From contig NZ_JACCFJ010000001.1 in assembly GCF_013410345.1 (NCBI RefSeq), forward strand, positions 4,253,001-4,317,000: a stretch of 64,000 nucleotides of DNA, given 5' to 3'. The notes under the pieces are model-generated. The model saw only the letters and a program-made list of their open reading frames with translations. It ran no database searches and was not told the DNA's origin. This DNA is from Saccharopolyspora hordei (lineage in GTDB: Bacteria; Actinomycetota; Actinomycetes; Mycobacteriales; Pseudonocardiaceae). A program made the translations under genes and the position numbers. Shown here piece by piece: positions 34,660 to 48,018 of this stretch (within the stretch, counting starts at the first letter, position 1; each line of letters starts with the position of its first letter).

Positions 34660-34748
34660 TTGACAACTCACTCCTCCGGGTGACAACATCCCCGGCAATC
34701 CTGAAATCGTTTCCAGTCTCCGCCCGGCGCGACACTGGAAACGTTTCC
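34660..34748 (+). promoter_or_regulatory. LacI-type operator pair and promoter before the glycoside operon
   Basis: GGAAACGTTTCC at 34737-34748 is a perfect palindrome with the central CG typical of LacI-family sites. TGAAATCGTTTCCA at 34702-34715 is a second, less perfect copy, with centres 34 bases apart. TTGACA at 34660-34665 is a likely -35 box. Confidence 0.78.
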
Positions 34749-34788
34749 GGTCCCGGCCGGCACCCGGCCGCTGAGCACGGAGGAGACG

Positions 34789-35820
34789 ATGACGTCGACA
34801 CGGGCCACGCTGCAACAGGTGGCCGAGCGCGCGGGGGTGTCACTGGCCTCCACCTCCCGCGCCCTCCACGGGAGCGGGGCGAGCAAGGCGATGGTCGAGC
34901 GCGTCCGCGCGGCCGCGGCCGAACTCGGCTACAGCGTGGACGCCATCGGGCGTTCGCTGCGGATGGGCAAGACCTTCCAGATCGCCTTCGCGGTCGCCGA
35001 CATCGGCAACCCGGTCTACGTGGAGATGATGCGCGGCATCCACGAGGTGCTCGCCCCGCACGGCTACCGGGTCGTGGTCATGACGACCGGCGACACCGCG
35101 GCCTCCACGGCCGACCTGGTGCGCAGCCTGAGCGGCGGGTTCGTCGACGGGATGATCCTGATCCCGCTGCGCACGGACGACGAGCTGATCGAGGAGATCC
35201 GGCGGGCCCCGGTGCCGATGGTGGTCATCGGGCGCGCGTTGAGCGAACACGGGATCAGCTCGGTGTCCGTCGACTCCGGGGCGGGCATCGCCGAGGCGGT
35301 CCGGCACGTCCACGCCCTCGGGCGCCGCCGCATCGGCTTCCTCAACGGCCCGCTCGACACGACGCCGGGCGCCTCCCGCCAGCGCGGGTTCGACGCGGTG
35401 GTCGGTGCCGAGGGCTTCTCGGCCGAGCGGGTGCAGGTCGAGATCGCCGACGACTTCACCGTCGCCGCCGGGTTCGAGGCGGGCCGACGGCTGCTCGCCG
35501 GGTCGTCCTCGCCGAGCGACCGCCTCGACGCGGTCGTCGCCGCCAACGACCTGCTGGCCATCGGGGTGCTCCGCGCGGCCCGCGAGCTGGGGCTGGCCAC
35601 CCCGCAGGACCTGGCGGTGACCGGCATGGACGACACCGAGCTGGGCCAGGTGTACCTGCCCCGCCTGACGAGCGTCTCCCTCGGCTCCGCGGAGCGGGGA
35701 CGCACGGCGGCGCGGCTCGTGCTGGAGCTGGCCGACGACCCGGACACACCGGCGCAGCAGGTCGCCTTCGAGCCCGAGCTGATCGTCCGCGAGTCCACCG
35801 TGGATGGCGGTGGACGATGA
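34789..35820 (+). CDS. LacI-family repressor of the glycoside operon
   Basis: 343 residues. The N-terminal helix-turn-helix and hinge are TLQQVAERAGVSLASTSRAL and LGYSVDAIGRSLRMGKT. The rest is a periplasmic-binding-protein-like ligand domain, with GMDDTELGQVYLPRLTSVSL near the end. Two matching operators lie directly upstream, so it should autoregulate and control the downstream ABC genes. Its stop overlaps the permease start (ATGA), so it is the first cistron of the operon rather than a separate unit. Confidence 0.9.
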   Translation: MTSTRATLQQVAERAGVSLASTSRALHGSGASKAMVERVRAAAAELGYSVDAIGRSLRMGKTFQIAFAVADIGNPVYVEMMRGIHEVLAPHGYRVVVMTTGDTAASTADLVRSLSGGFVDGMILIPLRTDDELIEEIRRAPVPMVVIGRALSEHGISSVSVDSGAGIAEAVRHVHALGRRRIGFLNGPLDTTPGASRQRGFDAVVGAEGFSAERVQVEIADDFTVAAGFEAGRRLLAGSSSPSDRLDAVVAANDLLAIGVLRAARELGLATPQDLAVTGMDDTELGQVYLPRLTSVSLGSAERGRTAARLVLELADDPDTPAQQVAFEPELIVRESTVDGGGR

Positions 35821-36761
35821 GCACGGCCACCGCGGGGGTCCGTCCCGCGACCGCTCTCCCACGCACGAAGGGCGCGATGGCCCGGTCCCGGCGCCGCGAG
35901 GCGGTCGCGCTGGTGATGCCCTCGCTCGTCCCGATCCTGGTGCTGTCCGTGGCGCCGCTGGTGATCGGCATCGCGCTCGCCTTCACCGACGCCCGGCTGG
36001 TGCGCAGGCCCGACTACGACTTCGCCGGGCTGGAGAACTTCCTCGACCTGGCCGACAACGCGCTGTTCTGGGACTCGCTGCGGATCGGTCTCACCTGGAC
36101 GGTGAGCGTCACCGTGCTCCAGCTCGCCGCCGCGATGGGCCTGGCGCTGCTGCTCAACTCCGGCATGCGCCTGCAGGGCCTGACCCGCGTGCTGGCCCTG
36201 GTGCCGTGGGCCATGCCGCCGGTGGTCGTGGCGATCATGTGGCAGATGATCTACTCGGCCAACAGCGGCCCGCTCAACGCGCTGCTGGGCAGCCTGGGAC
36301 TGCCCGGTGACACCAACTGGCTCGGCGACTTCTCCACCGCGCTGCCCGCCGTGGTCCTGGTCGGCGTCTGGGTGGGGATGCCGCAGACGACGGTCACCCT
36401 GCTGGCCGGGTTGCAGCAGGTCCCGCCGGAGCTGCACGAGGCCGCGGCCGTGGACGGTGCGCGCGCCTGGCGCCGGTTCACCGCGGTCACCTGGCCGAGC
36501 CTGCGCCCGATCGTCGCCTCGATCACGTCGCTGAACTTCATCTGGAACTTCAACTCGTTCGCCCTGGTCTACGTGCTCACCGAAGGCGGGCCCGGCGGCC
36601 GGACGATGGTGCCGGTGCTGTTCGTCTACCTGGAGGCGTTCAAGAACCGCGAGATCGGCACCGCCGCCGCGATGGGGCTGGTGCTCGTCATCGTCATCGT
36701 CGCCGTGCTCGCCCTGTACCTGCGCTCGCAGTTCCGGCACGACACCGAGAGAGGTCGGTGA
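35817..36761 (+). CDS. ABC sugar transporter permease, MalF type
   Basis: 314 residues with six membrane helices. The first helix is at about 35-55 (LVMPSLVPILVLSVAPLVIG). The EAA loop that contacts the ATPase is HEAAAVDGARAWRRFTAVTW. YVLTEGGPGGRTMVPVLFVY is the usual MalF-type block. It forms the import channel with the next gene product. No ATPase gene lies in the operon; as in other actinomycetes, a shared MsiK-like ATPase is probably used. The ATG overlaps the lacI stop. Confidence 0.88.
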   Translation: MSTATAGVRPATALPRTKGAMARSRRREAVALVMPSLVPILVLSVAPLVIGIALAFTDARLVRRPDYDFAGLENFLDLADNALFWDSLRIGLTWTVSVTVLQLAAAMGLALLLNSGMRLQGLTRVLALVPWAMPPVVVAIMWQMIYSANSGPLNALLGSLGLPGDTNWLGDFSTALPAVVLVGVWVGMPQTTVTLLAGLQQVPPELHEAAAVDGARAWRRFTAVTWPSLRPIVASITSLNFIWNFNSFALVYVLTEGGPGGRTMVPVLFVYLEAFKNREIGTAAAMGLVLVIVIVAVLALYLRSQFRHDTERGR

Positions 36762-36764
36762 GCC

Positions 36765-37592
36765 ATGCGTTCCCTCGTCCGCCCCGCGCAGTACCTGGCG
36801 CTCGCGGTCTACCTGGTGTTCCTCGGCTTCCCGCTGGTGTGGCTCGTCTCCGCCTCGGTGAAGTCCTCCGGCGAGCTCAACTCGCTGTCGGTGAGCCTGC
36901 TGCCGCAGGAGTGGCACTGGGACAACTACGCGCAGGCGCTGGAACGGCAGGGGATCGTCCGGTCCGCGTTCAACAGCCTCGTGGTGGCGCTGCTGTCGAC
37001 GGCGCTGGTGATCGTGATCGCGCTGCCCGCGTCCTACGTGCTCGCCCGCGTCAAGGGCAAGGTCCGGATGGCGGGCGTGGCGTGGATCCTGGTCAGCCAG
37101 GTGTTCCCGGTCGTGCTCATCATCCTGCCGCTGTTCCTGGTCCTGCGCACGCTCCGGCTGACCGACAGCCTCGTCGGGCTGACGCTGGTGCACATGACCT
37201 ACATGCTGCCGTTCGCCCTGTGGATGCTGCAGGGCTACGTGGCGGCGGTGCCGGTCGAGCTGGAGGAGGCCGGGGCGGTGGACGGCGCGGGCCGGCTGAC
37301 CGTGCTGCGGTCGATCGTGTTCCCGCTGCTGACGCCCGGCATCATCGCGACCGCGATGTTCAGCTTCGTGTCGTCCTGGAACGAGTTCTTCTTCGCGCTG
37401 GTCCTGCTGCAGTCGCCGGAGAACTACACGTTGCCGATCACGCTGAAGATGTTCATCGGCGGCGAGGGCAAGGTCGCGCTCGGACCGCTCGCCGCGGGCG
37501 CGGTCCTCGCCGCGATCCCCAGCATCGTCTTCTTCTCCCTCCTGCGGCGCAAGCTCACCAGCGGCCTGATGGCCGGCGCGGTGAAGAGATGA
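36765..37592 (+). CDS. ABC sugar transporter permease, MalG type
   Basis: 275 residues with six membrane helices. The EAA loop is LEEAGAVDGAGRLTVLRSIV, and NYTLPITLKMFIGGEGKV near the C-terminus is a typical MalG-family block. It starts three bases after the first permease stop, with AGAGG as ribosome site. Partner of the preceding permease in the import channel. Confidence 0.88.
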   Translation: MRSLVRPAQYLALAVYLVFLGFPLVWLVSASVKSSGELNSLSVSLLPQEWHWDNYAQALERQGIVRSAFNSLVVALLSTALVIVIALPASYVLARVKGKVRMAGVAWILVSQVFPVVLIILPLFLVLRTLRLTDSLVGLTLVHMTYMLPFALWMLQGYVAAVPVELEEAGAVDGAGRLTVLRSIVFPLLTPGIIATAMFSFVSSWNEFFFALVLLQSPENYTLPITLKMFIGGEGKVALGPLAAGAVLAAIPSIVFFSLLRRKLTSGLMAGAVKR

Positions 37593-37620
37593 GTCCAGCG
37601 CAACGATCGAAAGGGCGACG

Positions 37621-38895
37621 ATGAGGTCACCACGCGCGTGGAAAGGGATCTGCCTGCTGCTCACCGGCGCGCTGCTCGCCGGGTGCGGCGGCAGCGGCGA
37701 CGACGGCTCCGGCCCGGTCACGCTCACCTTCCAGTCCTTGTCCGACCAGCCGGCCGCGATCGCAGCCACCAACGCGATCGTCGACTCCTGGAACGAGACC
37801 CACCCGGACGTCCAGGTCGACGTGGTGCCGGCGGGCTGGGACGGCATCTACGACAAGCTCATCACCCAGTTCAACGCCGGCAGCGCCCCGGACATCGTGC
37901 ACTACGAGGCCGCCGGCATCGCCCAGTTCGCGGCGGACGGCTACCTCGCCGACCTCACGCCCCACATGTCGCCGCAGACGCGCGAGGACATCCCGCCGGG
38001 CGTGCTCGACTCGGTCACGGTCGACGGGAAGGTCGTCGCCTACCCGACCGAGCTGCAGACGTACGTGGTGTTCGCCAACAAGGCCCTGCTGGACCGGGCG
38101 GGCGTGCCCGTCCCGACCGGGCCGACGATGTCGTGGACCCAGCTGCGCGAGATCGCCCGGGCCGCCACGAAGGACGGCGTGCACGGCCTGAGCTGGGGGT
38201 TGTCGAGCCCGACCTCGACGTTCGTGGCGATGGCGCCCGCGTTCGGCGGGCAGTACTTCCGCGGGCGTGGTGAGGACGCCGAGCTGAGCATCGGCCCGGG
38301 CGAGATGGCGCTGCCGGAACTGGTCCGCGCGATGGCCTACGAGGACCGCTCGATCCTCCCGGTGACGCTGACCCAGTCCGGGTCGAAGGCGCTGGCTCCC
38401 TTCTACGCGGGGCAGGTCGCGATGACCGTGCAGGGCTCGTACCAGGCGGCGAACATCGCGAAGGACGCCCCCGAGGGCTTCGAGTGGATCGCGCTGCCGC
38501 CGCTGGCCGGGTCGGTGGGGCCCGCCCAGGCGGCGAACCCGCAGACGCTGTCGGTGAACGCCGACTCCGAGCACGTCGCGGAGGCGGCCGAGTTCCTGGA
38601 GTACTTCACCAGCACGGAGAACCTGGTGAAGCTCAACGCCGCCGACGCGCTCATCCCGGCGACGACGTCGGCGCGGGAGGCGCTGGCGGAGGAGCTCGGC
38701 ACCCAGAACGGCTGGGACGTGATCCTGGCCTCCGGCGAGCACGTGACCTCGGCGCCGTACCTGTTCGTCAGCAAGTACGCGCAGTGGAAGGACACCGTCG
38801 CCACGCCCGCCTACCAACGCTTCCTCGCCGGGGAGATCGACGCCGACGGCCTGGCGCGGGAGCTGCGGGACGGCTGGCAGAGCACCAACGACTAG
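37621..38895 (+). CDS. ABC sugar substrate-binding lipoprotein
   Basis: 424 residues. The signal GICLLLTGALLAGCGGSG ends in the lipobox LLAGC. The mature part is a family 1 extracellular binding protein: VTLTFQSLSDQPAAIAATNA, APDIVHYEAAGIAQFAADGY, then PTELQTYVVFANKALLDRAG and QVAMTVQGSYQAANI. It would deliver the operon's glycoside to the two permeases. GAAAGGG serves as ribosome site. A hairpin at its stop may lower expression of the enzyme genes relative to the binding protein. Confidence 0.9.
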   Translation: MRSPRAWKGICLLLTGALLAGCGGSGDDGSGPVTLTFQSLSDQPAAIAATNAIVDSWNETHPDVQVDVVPAGWDGIYDKLITQFNAGSAPDIVHYEAAGIAQFAADGYLADLTPHMSPQTREDIPPGVLDSVTVDGKVVAYPTELQTYVVFANKALLDRAGVPVPTGPTMSWTQLREIARAATKDGVHGLSWGLSSPTSTFVAMAPAFGGQYFRGRGEDAELSIGPGEMALPELVRAMAYEDRSILPVTLTQSGSKALAPFYAGQVAMTVQGSYQAANIAKDAPEGFEWIALPPLAGSVGPAQAANPQTLSVNADSEHVAEAAEFLEYFTSTENLVKLNAADALIPATTSAREALAEELGTQNGWDVILASGEHVTSAPYLFVSKYAQWKDTVATPAYQRFLAGEIDADGLARELRDGWQSTND

Positions 38896-38912
38896 CGGGC
38901 GGGGCCGCCCGC
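38895..38912 (+). terminator. Intra-operon hairpin between binding protein and enzyme genes
   Basis: GCGGGCGG and CCGCCCGC form an 8-bp arm pair with two bases between, realistically a stem with a four-base loop. It begins at the last base of the TAG stop. Such hairpins often stabilise binding-protein mRNA and attenuate downstream genes. Confidence 0.5.
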
Positions 38913-38986
38913 GCCACGCGTGTCCACAGAGGACTCGGTGTCCGGCGGTCGGACCGCACCGGACGAACAGAAGGGAACGCAGTCCA

Positions 38987-40177
38987 GTGACCTGGATCGA
39001 GGACCGCTCGGTGGCCGTGCTCACCGGTGCGGCGGTGGGGGACGCGCTCGGGGGCGCCACCGAGGGGTGGACGCCCGAGCAGATCGAACAGCGGCACGGC
39101 GGCCGGGTGACCGGGATCGTCGGCCCCTGGTACCCGGACTGGCGGACCGCCCGCCCGATCTCCCCGTACCACAAGGGAGACGGGCACATCACCGACGACA
39201 CGCTCATGACGCGGGCGCTGGTCGAGGTGTACGCGAAGCGCCGCGCGCACCTCGACGCCTACGCCGTGGCCGAGGACCTGGTGCCGCTGATGATCGGGGA
39301 GCCCCGCTGGGTGCCCGAGCTGGAGTCCACCGCGCTGCTGCTGCAGCGGGTCTTCCTCGCGGAGAAGTGGATCGTCACCAGGCTGCACTACGGCCACGTG
39401 GACCCCCGCGAGGCGGGCGTGGGCAACATCGTCAACTGCGGCGCGGCGATGTACATCGCACCGGTCGGGATCGCCAACGCCGGCGACCCGCGCGGCGCGT
39501 ACGCCGAGGCGATCGACATCACCGGCGCGCACCAGTCCAGCTACGGCCGGGAGGCGGCCGGGGTGCTGGCCGCGATGGTCGCGGCCGCGATCGCGCCGGG
39601 AGCGGGGCTCGACGAGGTGGTGCGCGCGGCGCTCGACGTGGCGCACGACGGGACCGCCGCGGCGCTGCGCGCGGTCGTCGACGCGTTCGACGGCTGGGAC
39701 TCCCCGCCCAGCGACGACGAGGAGGAGCGCGCGCTGGCCCGCCGCATCCGGGAGCTCGTGGCGCCGTTCGACTCGGTCGGACCCGAGTACCGGCAGATGT
39801 CGCTCGACGCCCGCCGTCCGTCGCGCACGAAGTCGATCGAGGAGCTGCCCGCCGCGCTCGGGTTCGTGCTGGGCCACCGGGGCGACTACTGCGGTGCGGT
39901 GCTCGCCGCCGTCAACTACGGCCGGGACGCCGACTCGATCGCCGCCATGGCGGGCGCGGTCTGCGCCGGGCTGGGCGGGGCCGACGCGGTGCCGGCGGAG
40001 TGGGTCGACGCGGTGGGCGAGGCCAGCCGCATGGACCTGCGCGAGACCGGCCGCCTGATGGCCGCGGCCGCGACCGACATCCTGCGCGCGGACCGGCAGC
40101 GGGCCCGCGCGCGGCTGGCCGAGCTGGACGCGCTCGAGGTGCCCCGGGACGACGAGACGGTCGAGGGGCGGGCATGA
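38987..40177 (+). CDS. ADP-ribosylglycohydrolase-family enzyme, copy A
   Basis: 396 residues. The di-metal residues of the family are visible: GAAVGDALGGATEG (Asp19), ITDDTLMT (residues 69-72) and YGRDADSIAAMAG (Asp314, Asp316, Ser317). The usual third motif is DTDT, so DADS is a mild variant. Family members (DraG, ARH) hydrolyse the bond between ribose C1 and an amino acid or other group using two magnesium or manganese ions. The gene sits in a sugar ABC operon and precedes a second family member, so I infer a free small-molecule glycoside as substrate rather than a modified protein. GTG 38987 has AAGGGAA upstream. Confidence 0.88.
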   Translation: MTWIEDRSVAVLTGAAVGDALGGATEGWTPEQIEQRHGGRVTGIVGPWYPDWRTARPISPYHKGDGHITDDTLMTRALVEVYAKRRAHLDAYAVAEDLVPLMIGEPRWVPELESTALLLQRVFLAEKWIVTRLHYGHVDPREAGVGNIVNCGAAMYIAPVGIANAGDPRGAYAEAIDITGAHQSSYGREAAGVLAAMVAAAIAPGAGLDEVVRAALDVAHDGTAAALRAVVDAFDGWDSPPSDDEEERALARRIRELVAPFDSVGPEYRQMSLDARRPSRTKSIEELPAALGFVLGHRGDYCGAVLAAVNYGRDADSIAAMAGAVCAGLGGADAVPAEWVDAVGEASRMDLRETGRLMAAAATDILRADRQRARARLAELDALEVPRDDETVEGRA

Positions 40178-41514
40178 GGCTGACCTGGGCGCGTCCCGAG
40201 GACCTGCTCCCGCACGAGCTCGTCCAGTCCACTGTGGAGGGCAAGGACGTCACCGCGGTGCGCCGGCGGTGGGTCGCCGCCGGCGGTGACCCGGAACCCG
40301 CGGTCAGCGGCGCCGGTCCGCACCCGGCACCGCCGGAGCTGCGCGCGCTGGCGCGAACGCTGCTCGACGAGCTCGACGCGCTGCCCGCCGCGCCCGCGCC
40401 GGAGGAGCCGGACGAGTGGGAGGCGATCGTCGCGACGCTCCCACCGGCGCCGGACCTGCCGCGCCGGGACCGGGCCCGCGCGCTCGGGGCGTGGACCGGG
40501 CGCGCGGCCGGGTGCCTGCTCGGCAAACCCGTCGAGAAGGTCCCGCGCGAGGGCATCGAGGAGATCCTGCGCGCCACGGGACGCTGGCCGCTGGACCGGT
40601 ACTTCACCGCGGTCGGCCTGCCCGAGGACGTCGCGGCGCGCTGGCCGTGGAACCGGCGCTCCGCCCCCACCTCGCTGGAGGAGAACATCAGCGGGATGCC
40701 GGAGGACGACGACCTCAACTACCCGATGCTCGCGCTCACGCTGCTGGAACGGCACGGGCGCGGTTTCTCCACCGAGGACGTCGCGCAGCTGTGGCTGGAG
40801 GACCTGCCCGCGGGACGGGTGTTCACCGCCGAGCGCGCCGCCTACCGCAACCTGCTCGACGCCCGGCCCGTGCCCGAGACGGCCACCCACCACAACCCGT
40901 TCCGCGAGTGGATCGGCGCGCTCATCCGCACCGACGTGTTCGGCTGGGTCAGCCCCGGGGACGTGCGCGCCGCCGCGCGGATGGCGTGGACCGACGCCCG
41001 GCTCAGCCACACGCGCAACGGGATCTACGGCGCGATGTGGGCGGCGGCGCTGGCGTCCGCGGCCATGGTGTGCGACAGCGTCGACGAGGTCCTGGACGCG
41101 GCCGACACCGTGGTCCCGCCGCGCAGTCGGCTCGCCCGTGCCGTGCGCGTCGGACGGGACGCGGCCGCCCTCGGCGACGTGCGCAGCGGTCTCGACCGCC
41201 TGCACGCCGAGTACGGCGACCTGCACTGGGTGCACGTGCTCAACAACGCCGCGGTCATCGCGCACGCGCTCGCCAGCGGGGGCGGTGAGTTCGGCCCGAG
41301 CGTGTCGATCGCGGTCACCGCGGGCTGGGACACCGACTCCGCCGCGGCGACCGTCGGCGGTGTCGTCGGGGCCCTGCACGGGGTGGACGGCATCGGCGAG
41401 CGGTGGACCGCGCCGCTGGAGGACCGCATCGCGACCTCGCTGCCCGGCGGGCCGCGGCGCATCTCCGACCTCGCCGCGCGCACCCGGGCCCTCACCGCCG
41501 AGGAGGCCCGGTGA
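40174..41514 (+). CDS. ADP-ribosylglycohydrolase-family enzyme, divergent copy B
   Basis: 446 residues, coupled to copy A by an ATGA overlap. About 100 N-terminal residues come before the hydrolase domain. That domain has GAWTGRAAGCLLGKPVEKVP, where the usual GDALG aspartate is alanine, then EDDDLNYPMLALTLLERHG in place of TDDT, and a full third motif GWDTDSAAATVGGVVG. Two metal ligands are thus conserved and one position altered, a pattern I have seen in a separate sub-branch of the family. It is unlikely to be a duplicate of copy A. The two may act in sequence or on different anomers. Confidence 0.85.
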   Translation: MRLTWARPEDLLPHELVQSTVEGKDVTAVRRRWVAAGGDPEPAVSGAGPHPAPPELRALARTLLDELDALPAAPAPEEPDEWEAIVATLPPAPDLPRRDRARALGAWTGRAAGCLLGKPVEKVPREGIEEILRATGRWPLDRYFTAVGLPEDVAARWPWNRRSAPTSLEENISGMPEDDDLNYPMLALTLLERHGRGFSTEDVAQLWLEDLPAGRVFTAERAAYRNLLDARPVPETATHHNPFREWIGALIRTDVFGWVSPGDVRAAARMAWTDARLSHTRNGIYGAMWAAALASAAMVCDSVDEVLDAADTVVPPRSRLARAVRVGRDAAALGDVRSGLDRLHAEYGDLHWVHVLNNAAVIAHALASGGGEFGPSVSIAVTAGWDTDSAAATVGGVVGALHGVDGIGERWTAPLEDRIATSLPGGPRRISDLAARTRALTAEEAR

Positions 41515-41572
41515 CCGCCCGCGCCGGCGGGGACCGGCCCGCCGCCGACCACGCCCCGACTGGAGAGGCACG

Positions 41573-43540
41573 ATGACCTACGCGTTCGACCCGCTCGTCC
41601 CCCGCCCGATCGACCGCCCCACCGAGGTGCCGCTGGACGGGGACCTCACGCCCGAGCGGTCCCGCGCGCTGGACGAGGCGAAGATCTTCGCGGCCCCGGA
41701 CGACCCGGCGGACCGGCCCGCGTGGCGCCGGCGCCTGCACGCCTGGCGCGAGGACGCCCGGAGGCGCCACGCGTACTCCGGCGCCGTCTACGACCGCCCG
41801 GAGGCGGCCTGGGCGGCGCGCTGCCACACGGTCGCCCAGGTGTGGCTGTGGGACGAGCTGCTGTACTCGTTCGACGAACACCGCTTCACGCCCGACCGCT
41901 TCCTCACCGACGCGCGCGAGCGGTTCGGCGGCCTGGACGCGGTGGTGCTGTGGCACGCCTACCCGGTGATCGGGATCGACGACCGCAACCAGTGGGACTT
42001 CTACCGCGACGTCCCCGGCCTCGCCGACCTGGTCGCGGACCTGCACGAGGCCGGGCTGCGCGTGTTCGTCGACTACAACCCCTGGGACGTGGGCACCCGG
42101 CGGACCGGGGACGACATCGCCGAGCTCGCGGCCCTCGTCGCCGAGCTCGGCGCGGACGGCGTCTTCCTCGACACGCTGAAGAAGGCCGAGCCCGAGCTGG
42201 TCACGCAGCTGGAACGCGCGCGTCCCGGGATCGTGCTGGAGGGCGAGTCCAAGCTGCCGGTCGAGCGCATCGAGGACCACGCGAGCTCGTGGGCGCAGTT
42301 CTTCGCCGACTCGCCGGTGCCGGGCGTGCTGCGGGCGCACTGGTACGAGCGCCGCCACATGCAGCACCACGTGCGCCGCTGGCACCGGGACCACACCGAG
42401 GAGCTGCAGTCGGCGTGGCTCAACGGCGTGGGCGTCATGGTGTGGGAAGTGGTCTTCGGCGTGTGGGTCGGCTGGTCGCGCCGGGACGCCGCGACCGTGC
42501 GCCGCATGGTCACCGTGCAACGCGCGGTGGGCGACCTGCTGCTCGAGGGCACGTGGACCCCGCTGGCCGAGCTGGCACCGGGAGCGGAGGCCGCCGGCGT
42601 CCACGCGTCGCGCTGGAAGCTCGGCGACTGGACACTGTGGACGGTGGTGAACCGCCGCGAGGAGGACTACGCCGGTCCGGTCGTCGACGGACCGGTCATC
42701 GACCTGTTCGGCGACGGCGTGGTGCCCGCTCGCGGCATCGCGGCGCTGCTGCGCGTCGCACCGGGCGCCCCGGAACCCACGTGGCTGCCCGGGCTCCAGG
42801 CGGCCCTGCGGGAGATGCCGCACGACCCGGACCCGCGCTTCCCGCACCGGCTCGCCGTGCGCACGCAGCCACCGGCGACGACCGGTGAGCCCGATCCGGA
42901 CGCCGTCGTCGTCCCGGCCGGGCCGTACGTGCTGACCGTGCGCTACCGCGCCCGCGAGACCGGGATGTACCAGGGCGCGCCGTACGTGGACGAGTGGAAG
43001 CCGCTGCCGCCGCGCCTGCACGACGCGCGGACGCTGCAGCGCGACGGCGAGCTCGCCACCCCCGTCGCCGTCGCCGCCAGCGAGGTCACCAACCGCGAGT
43101 TCGCGGAGTTCCTCGACGCGACCGGGTACCGGCCGGCCGAACCGAACCGCTTCCTCGCCCACTGGTCCGGCGGACGGCCGGTGCCCGGGACCGAGGACCA
43201 CCCGGTGACGTTCGTCGACCTCGACGACGCCCGCGCCTACTGCGCGTGGCGCGGCGGGCGGCTGCCCACGGAGGACGAGTGGCAGCTCGCCGGCGAGACC
43301 GGACGGCTGCGGCGCGGTGAACCAGCGGTGTGGAACTGGACCGAGAGCGAGCACTCCGACGGGCGGACCCGGTTCGTCATGCTCAAGGGCGGCTGCGACC
43401 ACCGGGCCGACGGCGCCGACTGGTACTTCGACGGCGGCCGCCGAGGGCCGGAGCACAGCGCCAAGCTGCTGCTGCCCGGGCTCGGCCTCGCCCGCGGGGC
43501 CACCGTCGGCTTCCGGTGCGCGTGGGACGTGCGGTCCTGA
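41573..43540 (+). CDS. Glycosidase-like TIM barrel fused to an FGE/SUMF1-like domain
   Basis: 655 residues. The N-terminal 420 or so look like a glycosidase barrel: VVLWHAYPVIGIDDRNQWDF, then GLRVFVDYNPWDVGTR, GVFLDTLKKAEPELV with a candidate catalytic Asp, and LEGESKLP. A beta-rich linker follows. Residues 500-655 form a formylglycine-generating-enzyme-like fold (PVAVAASEVTNREFAEFLDA, RLPTEDEWQLAGETG, TVGFRCAWD). The catalytic cysteine pair of true FGE is missing; KGGCDHR has a lone cysteine where GGS is usual. I infer a non-catalytic binding module. GGAGAGG precedes ATG 41573. Last gene of the operon. Confidence 0.72.
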   Translation: MTYAFDPLVPRPIDRPTEVPLDGDLTPERSRALDEAKIFAAPDDPADRPAWRRRLHAWREDARRRHAYSGAVYDRPEAAWAARCHTVAQVWLWDELLYSFDEHRFTPDRFLTDARERFGGLDAVVLWHAYPVIGIDDRNQWDFYRDVPGLADLVADLHEAGLRVFVDYNPWDVGTRRTGDDIAELAALVAELGADGVFLDTLKKAEPELVTQLERARPGIVLEGESKLPVERIEDHASSWAQFFADSPVPGVLRAHWYERRHMQHHVRRWHRDHTEELQSAWLNGVGVMVWEVVFGVWVGWSRRDAATVRRMVTVQRAVGDLLLEGTWTPLAELAPGAEAAGVHASRWKLGDWTLWTVVNRREEDYAGPVVDGPVIDLFGDGVVPARGIAALLRVAPGAPEPTWLPGLQAALREMPHDPDPRFPHRLAVRTQPPATTGEPDPDAVVVPAGPYVLTVRYRARETGMYQGAPYVDEWKPLPPRLHDARTLQRDGELATPVAVAASEVTNREFAEFLDATGYRPAEPNRFLAHWSGGRPVPGTEDHPVTFVDLDDARAYCAWRGGRLPTEDEWQLAGETGRLRRGEPAVWNWTESEHSDGRTRFVMLKGGCDHRADGADWYFDGGRRGPEHSAKLLLPGLGLARGATVGFRCAWDVRS

Positions 43541-43548
43541 CCGGCAGC

Positions 43549-43797
43549 TCAGTCCTCGCCGGTGCTCTCCCAGCGGAACACGTAGGACATCGCGAAGCCG
43601 AGCAGGCCGGTGGCGCCGGCGACGACGGTCATCGCCGTCCCCAGCCCGTCCGCGGCACCGGAGACCAGCGCGGGGTCCGCGGTGAGCACGCCGACGGCCT
43701 GGGCGCCGACGACCGCGACGCCGAGCAGCAGGAAGACGGCCAGGCCGACCTTGAACAGCACCAGCAGGACCCGCCGGAGCGGTGGAGTGCGAGTCAT
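43549..43797 (-). CDS. Small two-helix membrane protein paired with the TRAP permease
   Basis: 82 residues. A basic start (TRTPPLRRVLLVLFK) leads into helix 1 (about 12-35); helix 2 is at about 52-75, before FRWESTGED. AGGAAGGG lies before ATG 43797, and the TRAP permease stop is 14 bases upstream, so the two are co-transcribed. A normal TRAP small subunit (DctQ) has four helices and about 160 residues; this is half that. It may be a reduced partner or an unrelated accessory. No family recognised. Confidence 0.6.
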   Translation of the reverse strand: MTRTPPLRRVLLVLFKVGLAVFLLLGVAVVGAQAVGVLTADPALVSGAADGLGTAMTVVAGATGLLGFAMSYVFRWESTGED

Positions 43798-43811
43798 CGT
43801 CAGATCCCTTC

Positions 43812-45155
43812 CTAGACGGGCAGCGGGAGCACGCCGGTGGCGATGAGCACGCCGATGACCAGCGTCGGCACCACGAACCACGTGAGGAGGCGGAGGAACG
43901 TGCGCGCGGGGTCGACACCGGCGATCCCGCTGGCGATGTAGATGGGCGCCGCGCCGGGCGGTGACGCGCCCTCGGTGGAGGCGAAGACGAGGACCACCGT
44001 CGCCGCCGCGGCCGGGGCGACGCCGGCGCTGGTCAGGGCGCTGAACGCGACCCCGCCGACCGCCGCGATGGTGGCGGTGGCGGTCAGCGGCGCGGCGATG
44101 ACCACGATGAGCACGCCCACCAGCGCGGCCATCACCCAGACCGGGGCGTCGATGCCGGCCGTGATCGCCGTCAGCTGGTCGACCAGGCCGAGCTCGCCGA
44201 GGCTGCCCGCAGCGGCGAAGGCGAACAGCAGGGTCGCGCCGATGACCGCGTACCGCGGCGCCATGTCACCGAGCACGTCGCTCCAGCCGCGCAGCGTGCG
44301 CGGCAGCCGCTTCCACCCGACCAGCACCGTGGCGAGGATGGTCAGCACCGGGATCCACACCACGATGCTGATGTCGTCCGCCGCCTCGCCGAGCCGGGAC
44401 TCCAGGAACCGCGCACCGACGTCGAGCGTCATGACCACCGGGACCGCGATGCCGAGGTACACCAGCAGCGAGCTCGCGCCCTCCCGCAGCGCCACGCGCA
44501 CCGGCGCGATCTCCGACCGGTCCATCGCCTCCACCCGGTACCGGCGCGTCCAGAGGAACACGACCACGAACCGGTGCAGCACCGTCCACAGTCCACCGAC
44601 GAAGGCGGCGACGAACAGCTCGTCGGCGGTGAGCACCGGCGCGACCGCGGCGGAACCGAGCAGCAGGAACATCGAGGAGCTGGGCGGGATCGAGATGCCG
44701 AGCCCGGCGTTGCCGGCCACCAGCGAGGCGGCCACGTCCGGTCGCCAGCGGGACCGGACCATCCACGGGATGGTGACCGAACCGACCGACGCGGCGATGC
44801 CCGAGCCCGACCCGGCGGGACCGCCGAGCAGCGCCGCGGTCGCGGTCGACACGTACGCCGATCCGCCGCGCAACCGGCCGAACACCGAGTTCAGCAGGGC
44901 GACCTGCCGGTCGATGAGCCCGAGCCGCGTCATCAGGTAGCCCATGAGGACGAAGGCCATGGCGGCGAAGACGACTTCCTCGGACAGCGCGTCGCTCAGC
45001 CCGGCCCAGGCCAGGCCCAGCGCGTCGGTGCCGCCGAAGAGGCAGACCACCGCGAACCCGACGAGCATCGCCTCACCGATGCTGCGCTTGAGCACCACGT
45101 TCCAGACGACGATCACAGCGATGTAGCACAGCAGTGCCCAGACGGCCAAGCCCAC
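43812..45155 (-). CDS. TRAP transporter large permease (DctM type)
   Basis: 447 residues with about 12-13 membrane helices. Blocks include EEVVFAAMAFVLMGYLMTRL, GGPAGSGSGIAASVGSVTIP, AGNAGLGISIPPSSSMFLL and a late GASPPGAAPIYIASGIAGVD, all consistent with DctM/IT-superfamily permeases. They import C4-dicarboxylates or similar acids with sodium. No DctP binding protein lies in the window. GTG 45155 has AAGGGAG eight bases upstream. It follows the lyase gene by 67 bases on the same strand, so it probably imports the acid that the CoA transferase and lyase degrade. Confidence 0.78.
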   Translation of the reverse strand: MGLAVWALLCYIAVIVVWNVVLKRSIGEAMLVGFAVVCLFGGTDALGLAWAGLSDALSEEVVFAAMAFVLMGYLMTRLGLIDRQVALLNSVFGRLRGGSAYVSTATAALLGGPAGSGSGIAASVGSVTIPWMVRSRWRPDVAASLVAGNAGLGISIPPSSSMFLLLGSAAVAPVLTADELFVAAFVGGLWTVLHRFVVVFLWTRRYRVEAMDRSEIAPVRVALREGASSLLVYLGIAVPVVMTLDVGARFLESRLGEAADDISIVVWIPVLTILATVLVGWKRLPRTLRGWSDVLGDMAPRYAVIGATLLFAFAAAGSLGELGLVDQLTAITAGIDAPVWVMAALVGVLIVVIAAPLTATATIAAVGGVAFSALTSAGVAPAAAATVVLVFASTEGASPPGAAPIYIASGIAGVDPARTFLRLLTWFVVPTLVIGVLIATGVLPLPV

Positions 45156-45222
45156 GACGAGATCTCCCTTGATCTTCAGGCTCCGGGTTCGGTTGTCGGC
45201 GGTCTGCCGAGGACGCGCTGCC

Positions 45223-46053
45223 TCAGCCGACCTCGTCGGCCAGCGCGAGCACGCGGCGCGCCCTGGCGACGACGGGAGCGTCGACGAAGCGCCCGTCCGG
45301 CAGGACGAGCGCGCCGACACCGTCCACCCCGGCCTGTTCCGCGGCGTCGACCACCGCGCGGGCACGGGTGATCTCGGCCTCGGTGGGCCGGAAAGCACGG
45401 CGGATCACCGGGACCTGCGCCGGGTGGATGGCGGTCCGGCCGAACATGCCGAGGTCGCGACCGCGCCGGCAGGACTCCACCAGCCCCGCCTCGTCGCGCA
45501 CGTCGGGGAACACCGACATGGGGACCGGCCCGATCCCGGCCGCCGCCGCGGCGAGCACGGCCTGCAGCCGCAGGTGGTCCAGGGCCGCCTCGCCGAGGGA
45601 CAGCTCGGCCACGAGGTCCTGCTCCCCCAACGCGATCCCCGCGGTGCGCGGGTGCGCGGCGATGGCGTGCGCGTGGGCGATGCCGCGCGCGGACTCCAGC
45701 AGCGCGAAGGCGGGCACCGGCCGGTCGCCGAAGACCTCGTCGAGCAGGTCCAGGTCGGTCGGTGACTCCACCTTCGGCAGCCGCACCGCGTCCAGGCCCG
45801 GCGCGCCGGCGAGGGCGGCCAGGTCCTCGCGGCCGCGCGCGGTCGCCAGGTCGTTGATCCGCACGTGCCACCGCGGTCCGCCGCGGGGCTGCGCCAGGTG
45901 GGCCACGACGTTCTCCCGCGCCTGGTCCTTGCGGCTGGCGTCGACGGCGTCCTCCAGGTCGACGATCACCACGTCGGCCCCGCTGGCGGCGGCTCTCGCG
46001 AAGCGGTCCGGCCGGTCGCCGGGGACGTAGAGCCAGCTGACCGGGGTGGTCAC
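45223..46053 (-). CDS. HpcH/HpaI-family CitE-like acyl-CoA lyase
   Basis: 276 residues. SWLYVPGDRPDRFARAAASG and VVIVDLEDAVDASRKDQARE start the CitE barrel; the metal-binding Glu and Asp are in FALLESARGI and IALGEQDLV, and GRTAIHPAQVPVI is the conserved end. Relatives cleave citramalyl-CoA, malyl-CoA or citryl-CoA to acetyl-CoA plus an oxo acid. Its GTG overlaps the CoA transferase stop by four bases, so the two form one pathway: activation to the CoA ester, then cleavage. A hydratase between them, expected for itaconate or mesaconate, is not in this window. Confidence 0.85.
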   Translation of the reverse strand: MTTPVSWLYVPGDRPDRFARAAASGADVVIVDLEDAVDASRKDQARENVVAHLAQPRGGPRWHVRINDLATARGREDLAALAGAPGLDAVRLPKVESPTDLDLLDEVFGDRPVPAFALLESARGIAHAHAIAAHPRTAGIALGEQDLVAELSLGEAALDHLRLQAVLAAAAAGIGPVPMSVFPDVRDEAGLVESCRRGRDLGMFGRTAIHPAQVPVIRRAFRPTEAEITRARAVVDAAEQAGVDGVGALVLPDGRFVDAPVVARARRVLALADEVG

Positions 46054-47237
46054 GCGACCACCCCCGCGCGGCGCAGCTCGGCGATCTCCTCGGCGTCGTG
46101 CCCGGCTTCGCGCAGCACCTCGTCGGTGTGCCGCCCCAGCGGCGGGCCGGGCCACCGCACCGCGCCGGGGGTGTCGGAGAGCCGGAACAGCACGTTCTGC
46201 AGGGTCACGGTGCCGAGCTCCTCGTCGGGCAGGTCGACGAAGGTGCCCAGCGCGGCGTACTGCGGGTCCTCCGCGATGTCGGAGACGTCGTAGACCGGCG
46301 CGATCGCGGCCTGCGCTTCGGTGAACGCGGCGATCACCTCCTCGGCGTCGCGCTCGGCGATCCAACTGGCCACCGCCTCGTCGAGCTCGTCGACGTGCGC
46401 CACCCGTCCGGCCCCGGTGGCGAACCACGGTTCGGCGGCCAGGTCGGGCCGCCCGACCAGGGTCATGACGCGTTCCGCGATGGACTGCGCGCTGGTGGAG
46501 ATCGCCAGCCAGCGGCCGTCGCGGGTGCGGTAGGTGTTGCGCGGGGCGTTGCTGTGCGAGCGGTTGCCGGTGCGCTGCGGGACCACGCCGAGTGCCTTGT
46601 AGGCGGTCATCTGCGGGCCGAGCAGGGCCAGGATCGGCTCGATGATCGCCATGTCGATGACCTGGCCGCGCCCGGTGCGCTCACGGGCCTGCACCGCGAC
46701 CATGATCGCGTAGGCCATGGCGAGGCCGGCGATGCCGTCGGCGAGCGCCAGCGGGGGCAGCACTGGCGGCCCGTCGGGCTCGCCGGTGCTGGCGGCGAAC
46801 CCGCTCATCGCCTCGGCGAGGGTGCCGAAGCCAGGGCGCTGGGCCATCGGGCCGAACTGCCCGAACCCGGTCATGCGGGCCACGACGAGCCGCGGGTTGA
46901 TCGCCATCAGGTCCTCGGGCGCGAGGTCCCACCGCTCGAGCGTGCCGGGGCGGAAGTTCTCGACCAGCACGTCGGAGGACTCGACCAGCCGCCGCAGCAC
47001 CGCCTGGCCTTCGGGCCGGGACAGGTCGACGGCAGCGGCGCGCTTGTTCCGCGACAGGGTCTTCCACCAGAGCCCCACCCCGTCCTTCGCGGCACCGTGG
47101 CCGCGGGCGGGGTCCCCGCGCCGCGGGTGCTCGATCTTGATCACGTCGGCGCCGAAGTCCCCCAGCAGCATCGCCGCGGACGGGCCGGCGAACAAGGTGG
47201 CGGCGTCGATCACTCGGAGCCCGCTCAGACTGGTCAT
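46050..47237 (-). CDS. CaiB/BaiF (class III) CoA transferase
   Basis: 395 residues. GLRVIDAATLFAGPSAAMLL, GADVIKIEHPRRGDPARGHG, SDVLVENFRPGTLERW and PGFGTLAEAMSGFAASTGEP are family blocks; the last includes the region of the catalytic aspartate. It moves CoA between carboxylic acids, probably from succinyl-CoA to an imported dicarboxylate. It is the first gene of a leftward operon (CoA transferase, lyase, TRAP permease, small protein). Its ATG lies nine bases from the GntR-type operator. Confidence 0.88.
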   Translation of the reverse strand: MTSLSGLRVIDAATLFAGPSAAMLLGDFGADVIKIEHPRRGDPARGHGAAKDGVGLWWKTLSRNKRAAAVDLSRPEGQAVLRRLVESSDVLVENFRPGTLERWDLAPEDLMAINPRLVVARMTGFGQFGPMAQRPGFGTLAEAMSGFAASTGEPDGPPVLPPLALADGIAGLAMAYAIMVAVQARERTGRGQVIDMAIIEPILALLGPQMTAYKALGVVPQRTGNRSHSNAPRNTYRTRDGRWLAISTSAQSIAERVMTLVGRPDLAAEPWFATGAGRVAHVDELDEAVASWIAERDAEEVIAAFTEAQAAIAPVYDVSDIAEDPQYAALGTFVDLPDEELGTVTLQNVLFRLSDTPGAVRWPGPPLGRHTDEVLREAGHDAEEIAELRRAGVVA

Positions 47238-47245
47238 GGCCGGAT

Positions 47246-47270
47246 AACTTATAAGATGTAAGTTGTAAGT
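47246..47270. promoter_or_regulatory. AT-rich GntR operator in the divergent promoter
   Basis: AACTTA (47246-47251) and TAAGTT (47259-47264) are inverted with seven bases between, and a third half-site GTAAGT follows. The inner CTTATAAG is itself a palindrome. This is one of the few AT-rich patches of the window and sits between the CoA transferase and gntR starts. Confidence 0.7.
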
Positions 47271-47346
47271 CAAGGGTCCGGCGGTTCCTCGGCCACGCGG
47301 GCGGTGCGGGATACTCGTGCGCAGACCGACGAGCCGAAGGACGGGA

Positions 47347-48018
47347 ATGCCAGGACCGAACCGCCCCCCGATGAGCAAGGCGGACTACGTCTACAGCGTT
47401 CTGCTGGAGGAGATCCGCAGCGCCCAGATCCCCGGCGGCACCCAGCTCAAGGCCGCCCCGCTGGCGAAGCGGCTGGGCGTGTCGGTCACACCGGTCCGGG
47501 AAGCCCTGCGGCGCTTGGAGAACGACCGGCTGGTCAGCTACCAGAGCCACCACGGCGCGACCGTGGTCGACCTCGGCGACGACGCGCTGTTCGAGTACTA
47601 CAACGTCCGCGCGGTGGTCGAGGGGCTCGGCGCCCGGCTGGCCGCCGACCGGATCAGCCCGCAGCAGCTGGCCCGGCTGCGCGAGCAGCACGAGGCGATG
47701 GTCCGCGACGCCGCCGCGGGCCACCGCGAGCGGCTCGGCGAGCAGAGCCAGGAGCTGCACCTGGCGATCGCCGACATCGGCGGTCCGGCGTTCCTCGGCC
47801 GGCACGCCCGCGCGGTCCGCAACAGCTACCCGGTGCCCTCCGACGCCTCGCTCTGGCTCGACGCGGAGTACACCCGGCGCCAGCTCGACGCGCACGCGGA
47901 GATCCTCGACGCGCTCGAGGCGGGCGACGGCGCGACCGCGGAGCGGATCATGGTCGACCACGTCCGCGCAGCCGGCGACCACCGCCTCAGCCAGCGGACC
48001 ACCGACCAACCCGCCTGA
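47347..48018 (+). CDS. GntR-family regulator, FadR/FCD type
   Basis: 223 residues. The winged helix is APLAKRLGVSVTPVREALRR after a short DYVYSVLLEEIRSAQIPGG. The C-terminal part is an FCD helical domain with metal-ligand-like residues (NVRAVVEGLGARLAADRI, ELHLAIADIGG, HAEILDALEAGD). It binds an organic acid or CoA ester. ATG 47347 has AAGGACGGGA upstream; ATG-like starts further upstream lack one. Divergent from the CoA transferase operon, it should repress that operon and itself. Confidence 0.86.
   Translation: MPGPNRPPMSKADYVYSVLLEEIRSAQIPGGTQLKAAPLAKRLGVSVTPVREALRRLENDRLVSYQSHHGATVVDLGDDALFEYYNVRAVVEGLGARLAADRISPQQLARLREQHEAMVRDAAAGHRERLGEQSQELHLAIADIGGPAFLGRHARAVRNSYPVPSDASLWLDAEYTRRQLDAHAEILDALEAGDGATAERIMVDHVRAAGDHRLSQRTTDQPA

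Follow-up and report, generated by a model that had tools for sequence, protein, structure and literature searches.

A sugar-import operon with paired ADP-ribosylglycohydrolase-family genes in Saccharopolyspora hordei and its relatives, with a proposed role in furanoside catabolism

The window analysed here, a stretch of 64,000 nucleotides from the genome of Saccharopolyspora hordei (contig NZ_JACCFJ010000001.1), carries seven co-directional open frames on the + strand between its positions 34789 and 43540: a lacI gene, two permease genes, a gene for a solute-binding lipoprotein, two ADP-ribosylglycohydrolase-family genes (ADPRG1 and ADPRG2) and a gene for a 655-residue fusion protein. An earlier sequence-only reading of the window had described this set as running in one direction with ATGA overlaps. 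The set and its direction are as described, whereas the overlaps occur at only two of the six junctions (lacI/permease 1 and ADPRG1/ADPRG2), the remaining four being spaced by 3, 28, 91 and 58 bp. ADP-ribosylglycohydrolases have mostly been studied as erasers of ADP-ribosylation. We propose, with a probability of about 0.6, that LacI governs a catabolic operon here, whose ADPRG-fold enzymes would cleave a furanoside (probably a riboside) taken up by the importer, and that a hydroxyacid is handled by a separate arm.

Genes and operator of the locus

Permease 1 (35817..36761, +) and permease 2 (36765..37592, +) both match BPD_transp_1 (PF00528), with 82 and 59.5 bits, and the carbohydrate-type binding protein (37621..38895, +) matches SBP_bac_1 (PF01547) with 132 bits. 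The lipobox of the latter ends in LLAGC at Cys22, and the PDB matches listed for it are largely sugar- or maltose-binding proteins. One SBP_bac_1 protein with two BPD_transp_1 proteins is the composition of a carbohydrate ATP-binding cassette (ABC) importer; the seven genes include none for an ATPase, and we assume that a shared ATPase would power the system.

The LacI-family repressor (34789..35820, +; PF00356 and Peripla_BP_3, PF13377) is probably self-regulating. A predicted LacI-type operator, the palindrome CTGGAAACGTTTCCGG (34735..34750), ends 38 bp before lacI, and a second, degenerate copy, TGAAATCGTTTCCAGT, was recognised by eye only at about 34702-34717. The core of the operator, GGAAACGTTTCC, has a single exact occurrence in the 5.78 Mb genome, and LacI therefore probably controls this operon alone there. 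The same exact core precedes lacI in 17 relatives; other relatives have differing palindromes or none. The 16-mer form of the operator was found in two of the five members of the family that were checked, with one copy in G138 and two in G251, all lying immediately before the operon, and was not found in the other three. A search for promoter- or terminator-like sites returned none, and a possible regulatory hairpin in the gap from the lipoprotein gene to ADPRG1 was rejected (z 0.05).

ADPRG1 (38987..40177, +), the proposed intracellular glycosidase, and ADPRG2 (40174..41514, +), proposed as a second one, match PF03747 with 166.3 and 164.2 bits against a cut-off of 26.2. The two different pairs of metal motifs noticed earlier were recovered exactly, with TDDT at residues 69-72 and DADS at 314-317 of ADPRG1, and DDDL at 178-181 and DTDS at 386-389 of ADPRG2. 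Both pairs are near-invariant: TDDT and DxDS are retained in all 72 relatives of ADPRG1, and for ADPRG2 the DDD is kept in 72 of 73 (with one gap), both aspartates of DxDS in 73 of 73 and its serine in 71. We take the acidic residues of these motifs to be the metal ligands of a two-metal site. The ADPRG two-metal site is suited to alpha-ribofuranosides.

That the substrates of the two enzymes are instead ADP-ribosylated proteins, nucleic acids or drugs, with the sugar importer a chance neighbour, would fit their solved sequence relatives, which include DraG and ARH3, and the PF03747 domain and two-metal motif that they have in common with the DraG/ARH ADP-ribosylhydrolases. Against this, both fall far below the cut-offs of the DraG model (TIGR02662; 51.4 bits for ADPRG1 and 21.3 for ADPRG2, cut-off 337) and of the Tri1 ADP-ribosylarginine hydrolase model (NF041672; 45.2 and 21.7 bits, cut-off 490), a search for defence families gave no match, and the importer neighbourhood recurs across phyla. 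On the basis of these scores and of the empty defence search we rejected roles in defence and in protein de-ADP-ribosylation, and we regard the broader alternative as very improbable.

Other members of the ADPRG family were seen in further contexts. Within the genome of the window, 13 of the 16 PF03747 matches fall in two clusters, L223 (1198000-1217500) and L224 (5091500-5106000); the open reading frames there are very long, with called genes measuring 1661, 1289, 1598 and 787 aa, and each contains two or three PF03747 domains. In loci L173-L176, ADPRG2-like genes (36-39% identical) adjoin a SIS-like gene and, in part, amidohydrolase-like and glycoside hydrolase (GH) 84-like genes; with these neighbours named by eye, this is another sugar context of the family. 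At locus L168, relatives of ADPRG1 (61%) and ADPRG2 (46%) have a LacI/ABC set and Gfo/Idh-like, LarA-like and formylglycine-generating enzyme (FGE)-like genes, mostly named by eye, in their vicinity.

Conservation of the gene set and its variants

The N-terminal part of the fusion was found in 29 of the 298 genomes of the order, that of the window included. All 28 others have both permeases, the binding protein, ADPRG1 and ADPRG2 beside the fusion, and all have a CaiB-type coenzyme A (CoA)-transferase and a CitE-type lyase. LacI is encoded in 27 of these loci, between ADPRG2 and the fusion in three; the contig of L055 ends inside permease 1. A second fusion copy in L067, 38% identical, stands without an operon.

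In named genomes we worked with 80 loci, the best 80 of 565 relatives chosen by similarity to the fusion; seven of them also belong to the 28-locus set, so the two series of counts are not independent. Among the 80, caiB and citE are present in 74, ADPRG2 in 73, ADPRG1 in 72, the binding protein in 69, the permeases in 69 and 70, and lacI in 67. The five genes ADPRG1, ADPRG2, fusion, caiB and citE occur together in 71 loci, and every one of these complete sets is co-directional, with ADPRG1 first, ADPRG2 second, and fusion/caiB and citE after them. A full complement of nine genes, importer and lacI included, is found in 65. The carriers are mostly Actinomycetota, joined by Devosia, Pelagibacterium and Trueperaceae, with the importer also present in one Trueperaceae locus. 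This recurrence of gene set and order in tens of genera makes the seven-gene arrangement more than chance; the sequence-only reading had named confinement to close relatives as an outcome that would speak against its interpretation, and the set proved to be widespread.

Across 56 loci, the distances of ADPRG1 agree best with those of the binding protein (rho 0.87), the binding protein and permease 2 reach rho 0.83, and the distances of ADPRG2 follow those of the fusion (0.80), the kinase (0.73) and the lyase (0.73). This pattern, in a comparison that leaves the linkage of neighbouring genes uncontrolled, would fit ADPRG1 acting first. The alignments A1, A2 and A3 comprise 17, 13 and 14 sequences, a subset of the loci; ADPRG2 of L066 and several genes of L237 are broken, and the L066 row was omitted from A2. 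One contig scan used two short peptide patterns only, and absence there weighs little.

Variants of the operon differ in the number of hydrolases and in the accompanying enzymes. Four ADPRG genes are present in four of the 80 loci (L131, L132, L133 and L141), and in L132 and L133 the two additional genes both match PF03747. The ADPRG2 profile matches 40 of the 298 genomes of the order, namely the 29 fusion carriers and 11 more; among the latter, L166 combines the operon with a kinase, the acid arm and two extra ADPRG domains fused to each other, and the other ten show different or partial contexts. On plasmids, ADPRG1 matched 21 records, and a Devosia fusion matched two others. Fourteen of the 21 were examined (all except H6-H9 and H13-H15), with about 9-10 kb covered on each side, and absence from these loci means absence from that stretch. 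All 13 Hyphomicrobiales loci among them have lacI, both permeases, the binding protein and ADPRG1, with ADPRG2 in 12, caiB in eight and citE in seven. A same-strand downstream kinase was seen in one (L226, where the deposited name is ribokinase), and L225 and L238 have kinase-like stretches on the opposite strand; the deposited names 'CoA transferase' and 'CoA ester lyase' appear in L229 and L239. The remaining record, Nonomuraea L231, combines lacI, the importer, four ADPRGs and a kinase, and has no acid arm in the examined stretch. Beside the fuller loci, the operon of the window is a reduced version.

A further arrangement occurs on the Sphingopyxis plasmid NZ_AP017899.1 (L240/L241), where a TonB receptor, a ribokinase (so named in the deposited record of L240), a fusion, a GH127-type furanosidase and a CoA-transferase lie together, with a CoA ester lyase, a sodium:solute symporter, a LysR-type regulator and a carboxylesterase on the divergent side. 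No PF03747 match is present on this plasmid, and the locus is a Gram-negative counterpart without an ADPRG there. Given the shared partners, it looks as if the ADPRGs and the GH127 enzyme fill one role.

A ribokinase-like gene accompanies most of these operons: it is found in 24 of the 28 order loci and in 60 of the 80 named loci (58 of the 71 complete ones), sits between ADPRG2 and the fusion in 58 of the 60, and encodes a detectable kinase motif in 58 of the 60. For each of the three operonic kinases of relatives that were scanned, ribokinase is the best NCBIfam family, and a ribokinase above the curated cut-off (301 bits) is encoded elsewhere in the genome of the window. These findings support the earlier suggestion that the imported compound is perhaps ribosylated, and the recurrence of a sugar-type ABC importer, mostly with LacI, next to ADPRGs in Actinomycetota and Alphaproteobacteria argues likewise for its broader proposal of nutrition or salvage from an imported glycoside.

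The sugar could also be another furanose or a branched pentose, for example D-apiose or D-arabinose, phosphorylated by a PfkB kinase that has drifted from ribose. The three scanned kinases score 276.5, 267.6 and 259.6 bits, below the ribokinase cut-off of 299.65 (TIGR02152), a GH127 furanosidase replaces the ADPRG in Sphingopyxis, and the record titles or sources of many carriers point to soil or plants. Ribokinase nevertheless remains the best family of the scanned kinases, and the suitability of the ADPRG two-metal site for alpha-ribofuranosides also favours ribose; we consider the alternative less likely than ribose.

The acid arm and the fusion protein

Directly downstream of the operon in the window, a GntR-caiB-citE-dctM-small protein block spans 43549-48018, with all but the GntR gene on the - strand. 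The GntR/FCD regulator (47371..48018, +; PF07729, PF00392) is divergent from the class III (CaiB-type) CoA-transferase (46050..47237, -; PF02515, 420 bits), which is followed by a CitE/RipC-like CoA-ester C-C lyase (45223..46053, -; PF03328, 111 bits) and by a large permease, DctM, of the tripartite ATP-independent periplasmic type (43812..45155, -; PF06808, 161 bits), possibly for acid uptake. The last gene is a gene call for a small membrane protein (43549..43797, -), recognised as such by eye; a longer reading of its frame matched no family. The best NCBIfam model of the lyase is the RipC citramalyl-CoA lyase (NF038242), whose cut-off of 375 is reached neither by the window's protein (177.9) nor by that of L046 (163.2), and the CoA-transferase stays below its best subfamily, NF052585 (265 against 750). 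Active-site residues are fully kept: R65, E120 and D146 of the lyase, which align with Arg64, Glu112 and Asp138 of Rv2498c, are present in all 74 relatives, as is D167 of the CoA-transferase, which we take to be its catalytic residue.

The window's CaiB is 58-68% identical to the operonic copies of L039-L066, whereas four other members of the family have CaiB proteins 84-94% identical to the L039 copy; the window's CaiB therefore represents a different lineage. Among ten loci chosen for their citE and examined for context, GntR-caiB-citE-dctM stands alone in two (L197 and L198, same family), and the block is perhaps a unit for the uptake and breakdown of a hydroxyacid. The idea that the window's caiB/citE is a displaced operonic pair is weakened by the lineage difference and by these stand-alone blocks; that the block serves the present operon is a guess. 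In L201, L202, L204, L205 and L206, caiB-citE is followed by genes judged by eye to be cyclase-like and MmgE/PrpD-like; L203 has citE with similar partners and no mapped caiB, and in L199 and L200 the two genes lie apart. The pairs of L201, L202 and L204-L206 also lie near what appears by eye to be a branched-chain-amino-acid-type ABC importer, and may belong to another acid pathway. The ADPRG queries mapped onto none of the ten citE loci.

In the relatives, the CoA-transferase, the CitE-type lyase and an esterase-like gene together suggest that a hydroxyacid is handled besides the sugar. In 22 of the 80 loci the esterase-like gene is found within the operon or adjacent to it, in the same orientation; all three copies scanned match PF00756, and many start with an apparent export signal, judged by eye. 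An esterase suggests that the acid is ester-linked outside the cell. According to PMC6689899, Rv2498c, a member of the CitE superfamily, cleaves (S)-citramalyl-CoA and (R)-3-hydroxy-3-methylglutaryl (HMG)-CoA, which makes citramalate- or HMG-like acids candidates here. Should the sugar not be ribose, one candidate type from plants is an HMG-esterified apioside, of which the esterase and the CoA-transferase/lyase would take the acid and the ADPRGs the furanoside. Besides the specificity of Rv2498c, whose matching Arg, Glu and Asp are kept, the occurrence of HMG-apiosyl glycosides in a legume, as reported in PMC11044239, would be in keeping with such a compound; on the other side, no apiose-pathway gene was recognised in the loci, where no dedicated search for one was made.

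The same enzymes bear on whether the operon salvages nucleosides, ADP-ribose or another nucleotide-derived riboside. The best NCBIfam match of LacI is CytR (170 bits, below the cut-off of 436), and the ADPRG fold family acts on ADP-ribose linkages, both of which would suit such a role. The importer, however, is of the sugar (SBP_bac_1) type, no nucleobase gene was recognised in the loci, again without a dedicated search, and neither the esterase-like gene nor the CoA arm fits, so that we judge salvage improbable.

The fusion protein (41573..43540, +) was described earlier as a 655-residue barrel-FGE fusion. Its length and FGE part stand, with a match to the FGE-sulfatase family (PF03781) of 70.9 bits whose best stretch is residues 489-595, while the 'barrel' label rests on weak evidence because the uncharacterised, barrel-like N-terminal part matches no Pfam or NCBIfam enzyme family. 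This holds for 14 of 14 diverse members (best Pfam E 0.089), and no convincing PDB relative emerged, the best being a designed protein (E 0.00065) followed by an amylase (0.18). With one alignment, hhalign gave 20% for GH36 (four sequences) and 13% for GH13 (one sequence). With a larger alignment these values were 0.7% and 4.1%, and eight non-GH controls gave at most 0.8%, which places GH13 slightly above the controls and GH36 within their range. D195, D200, E225 and D246 are invariant in all 80 relatives, and the N-terminal domain may be a new glycosidase family.

Formylglycine-generating enzymes use a catalytic Cys pair. A conserved pair is absent from the 81 aligned fusions, which thus do not qualify as such enzymes; Cys occurs in more than half of them only at residue 84, in the N-terminal part, and at residue 649 (GFRC), as single columns of 61/81 and 58/81. 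The fusion is dispensable in several operon variants, and is absent from L166 and from the examined stretches of Nonomuraea L231 and all 13 Hyphomicrobiales plasmid loci. Fusion-like proteins were also seen in Verrucomicrobiota, Planctomycetota and Chloroflexi (L143-L147), some with an apparent export signal and with no operon in the examined stretch; L144 adjoins genes that resemble GH51 by eye.

Proposed function and significance

We infer the transport substrate, all enzyme activities, the ribose and the acid from gene content. In the proposed catabolic operon, LacI would repress transcription, and the lipoprotein with its two permeases would import a small glycoside. ADPRG1 and ADPRG2 would then use their two-metal sites to hydrolyse furanose glycosidic bonds inside the cell, most likely those of ribose, and a ribokinase, encoded within the operon in most relatives and elsewhere in the genome of the window, would phosphorylate the sugar. 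Where the full set of genes is present, removal of an acyl group by a probably secreted esterase would come first, outside the cell; the class III CoA-transferase would activate the freed hydroxyacid, and the CitE-type lyase would split the activated acid, with acetyl-CoA and an oxo-acid as plausible products. The fusion would act as an accessory, GH-like enzyme whose FGE-fold domain is non-catalytic. In a bolder form of this proposal, the ADPRG-fold enzymes, present in two to four copies per operon, would be genuine glycoside hydrolases, namely furanosidases and probably alpha-ribofuranosidases, and would form the core of a widespread locus for using an esterified furanoside that also bears a hydroxyacid, and the fused barrel would represent a further new glycosidase family; we advance it tentatively, at somewhat short of even odds.

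Several observations weigh against the proposed riboside catabolism. The window's operon has no kinase, the kinase is missing from the stretch in 13 of the 71 complete loci, and the three scanned kinases score below the ribokinase cut-off. The window's CoA-transferase/lyase pair, being of another lineage than the operonic pairs, resembles the stand-alone blocks, and the nearness of the acid block to the operon may be chance. The GH-like character of the fusion's N-terminal domain is weak, as its hhalign values fall with the larger alignment. Five of the most distant loci, in Verrucomicrobiota, Planctomycetota and Chloroflexi, have the fusion-like gene but no operon, and three of these are close to the end of a contig; the 80 loci were sampled by fusion similarity; and the plasmid matches of the fusion and of ADPRG1 lie on different records.

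Comparison with known systems places the locus apart from each of them. In the DraG/ARH case the difference lies in the model scores given above and in the sugar-import context here. The C-terminal PF03781 match is shared with FGE/EgtB-type SUMF proteins, from which the fusion differs in its undescribed N-terminal domain and in lacking a conserved Cys pair. Itaconate/citramalate dissimilation (RipC, Rv2498c) likewise pairs a class III CoA-transferase with an adjacent CitE-type lyase, whose Arg, Glu and Asp are kept here; in our set, by contrast, no hydratase gene was recognised, the RipC and transferase cut-offs are not reached, and there is a link to a sugar importer. E. coli yegTUV likewise forms a single operon of an ADPRG-family gene, a putative sugar kinase gene and a transporter gene, under the regulator GgaR/YegW; its functions are given as unknown in PMC10819704. 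As described there, yegTUV has a nucleoside:H+ symporter-like transporter and a GntR-type regulator, whereas the present operon has an ABC importer and LacI, two to four ADPRGs and, in relatives, the CoA-transferase/lyase and the fusion. We class the locus as a carbohydrate-utilisation operon, not of the DraG, Tri1 or yegTUV kind, and no description of this gene set was found in the open-licence literature searched. Three papers, one about Bacteroidetes and two about staphylococcal cassettes, do contain the terms ADP-ribosylglycohydrolase, ribokinase and operon.

If our proposal is true, the ADPRG fold gains a role in carbon nutrition. An operon that joins importer, hydrolases and kinase under its own repressor makes another activity of this family testable, with the ligand of the lipoprotein as the likely substrate. 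More generally, many soil, plant-associated and rhizobial bacteria appear to be equipped to consume a sugar compound through this gene set.

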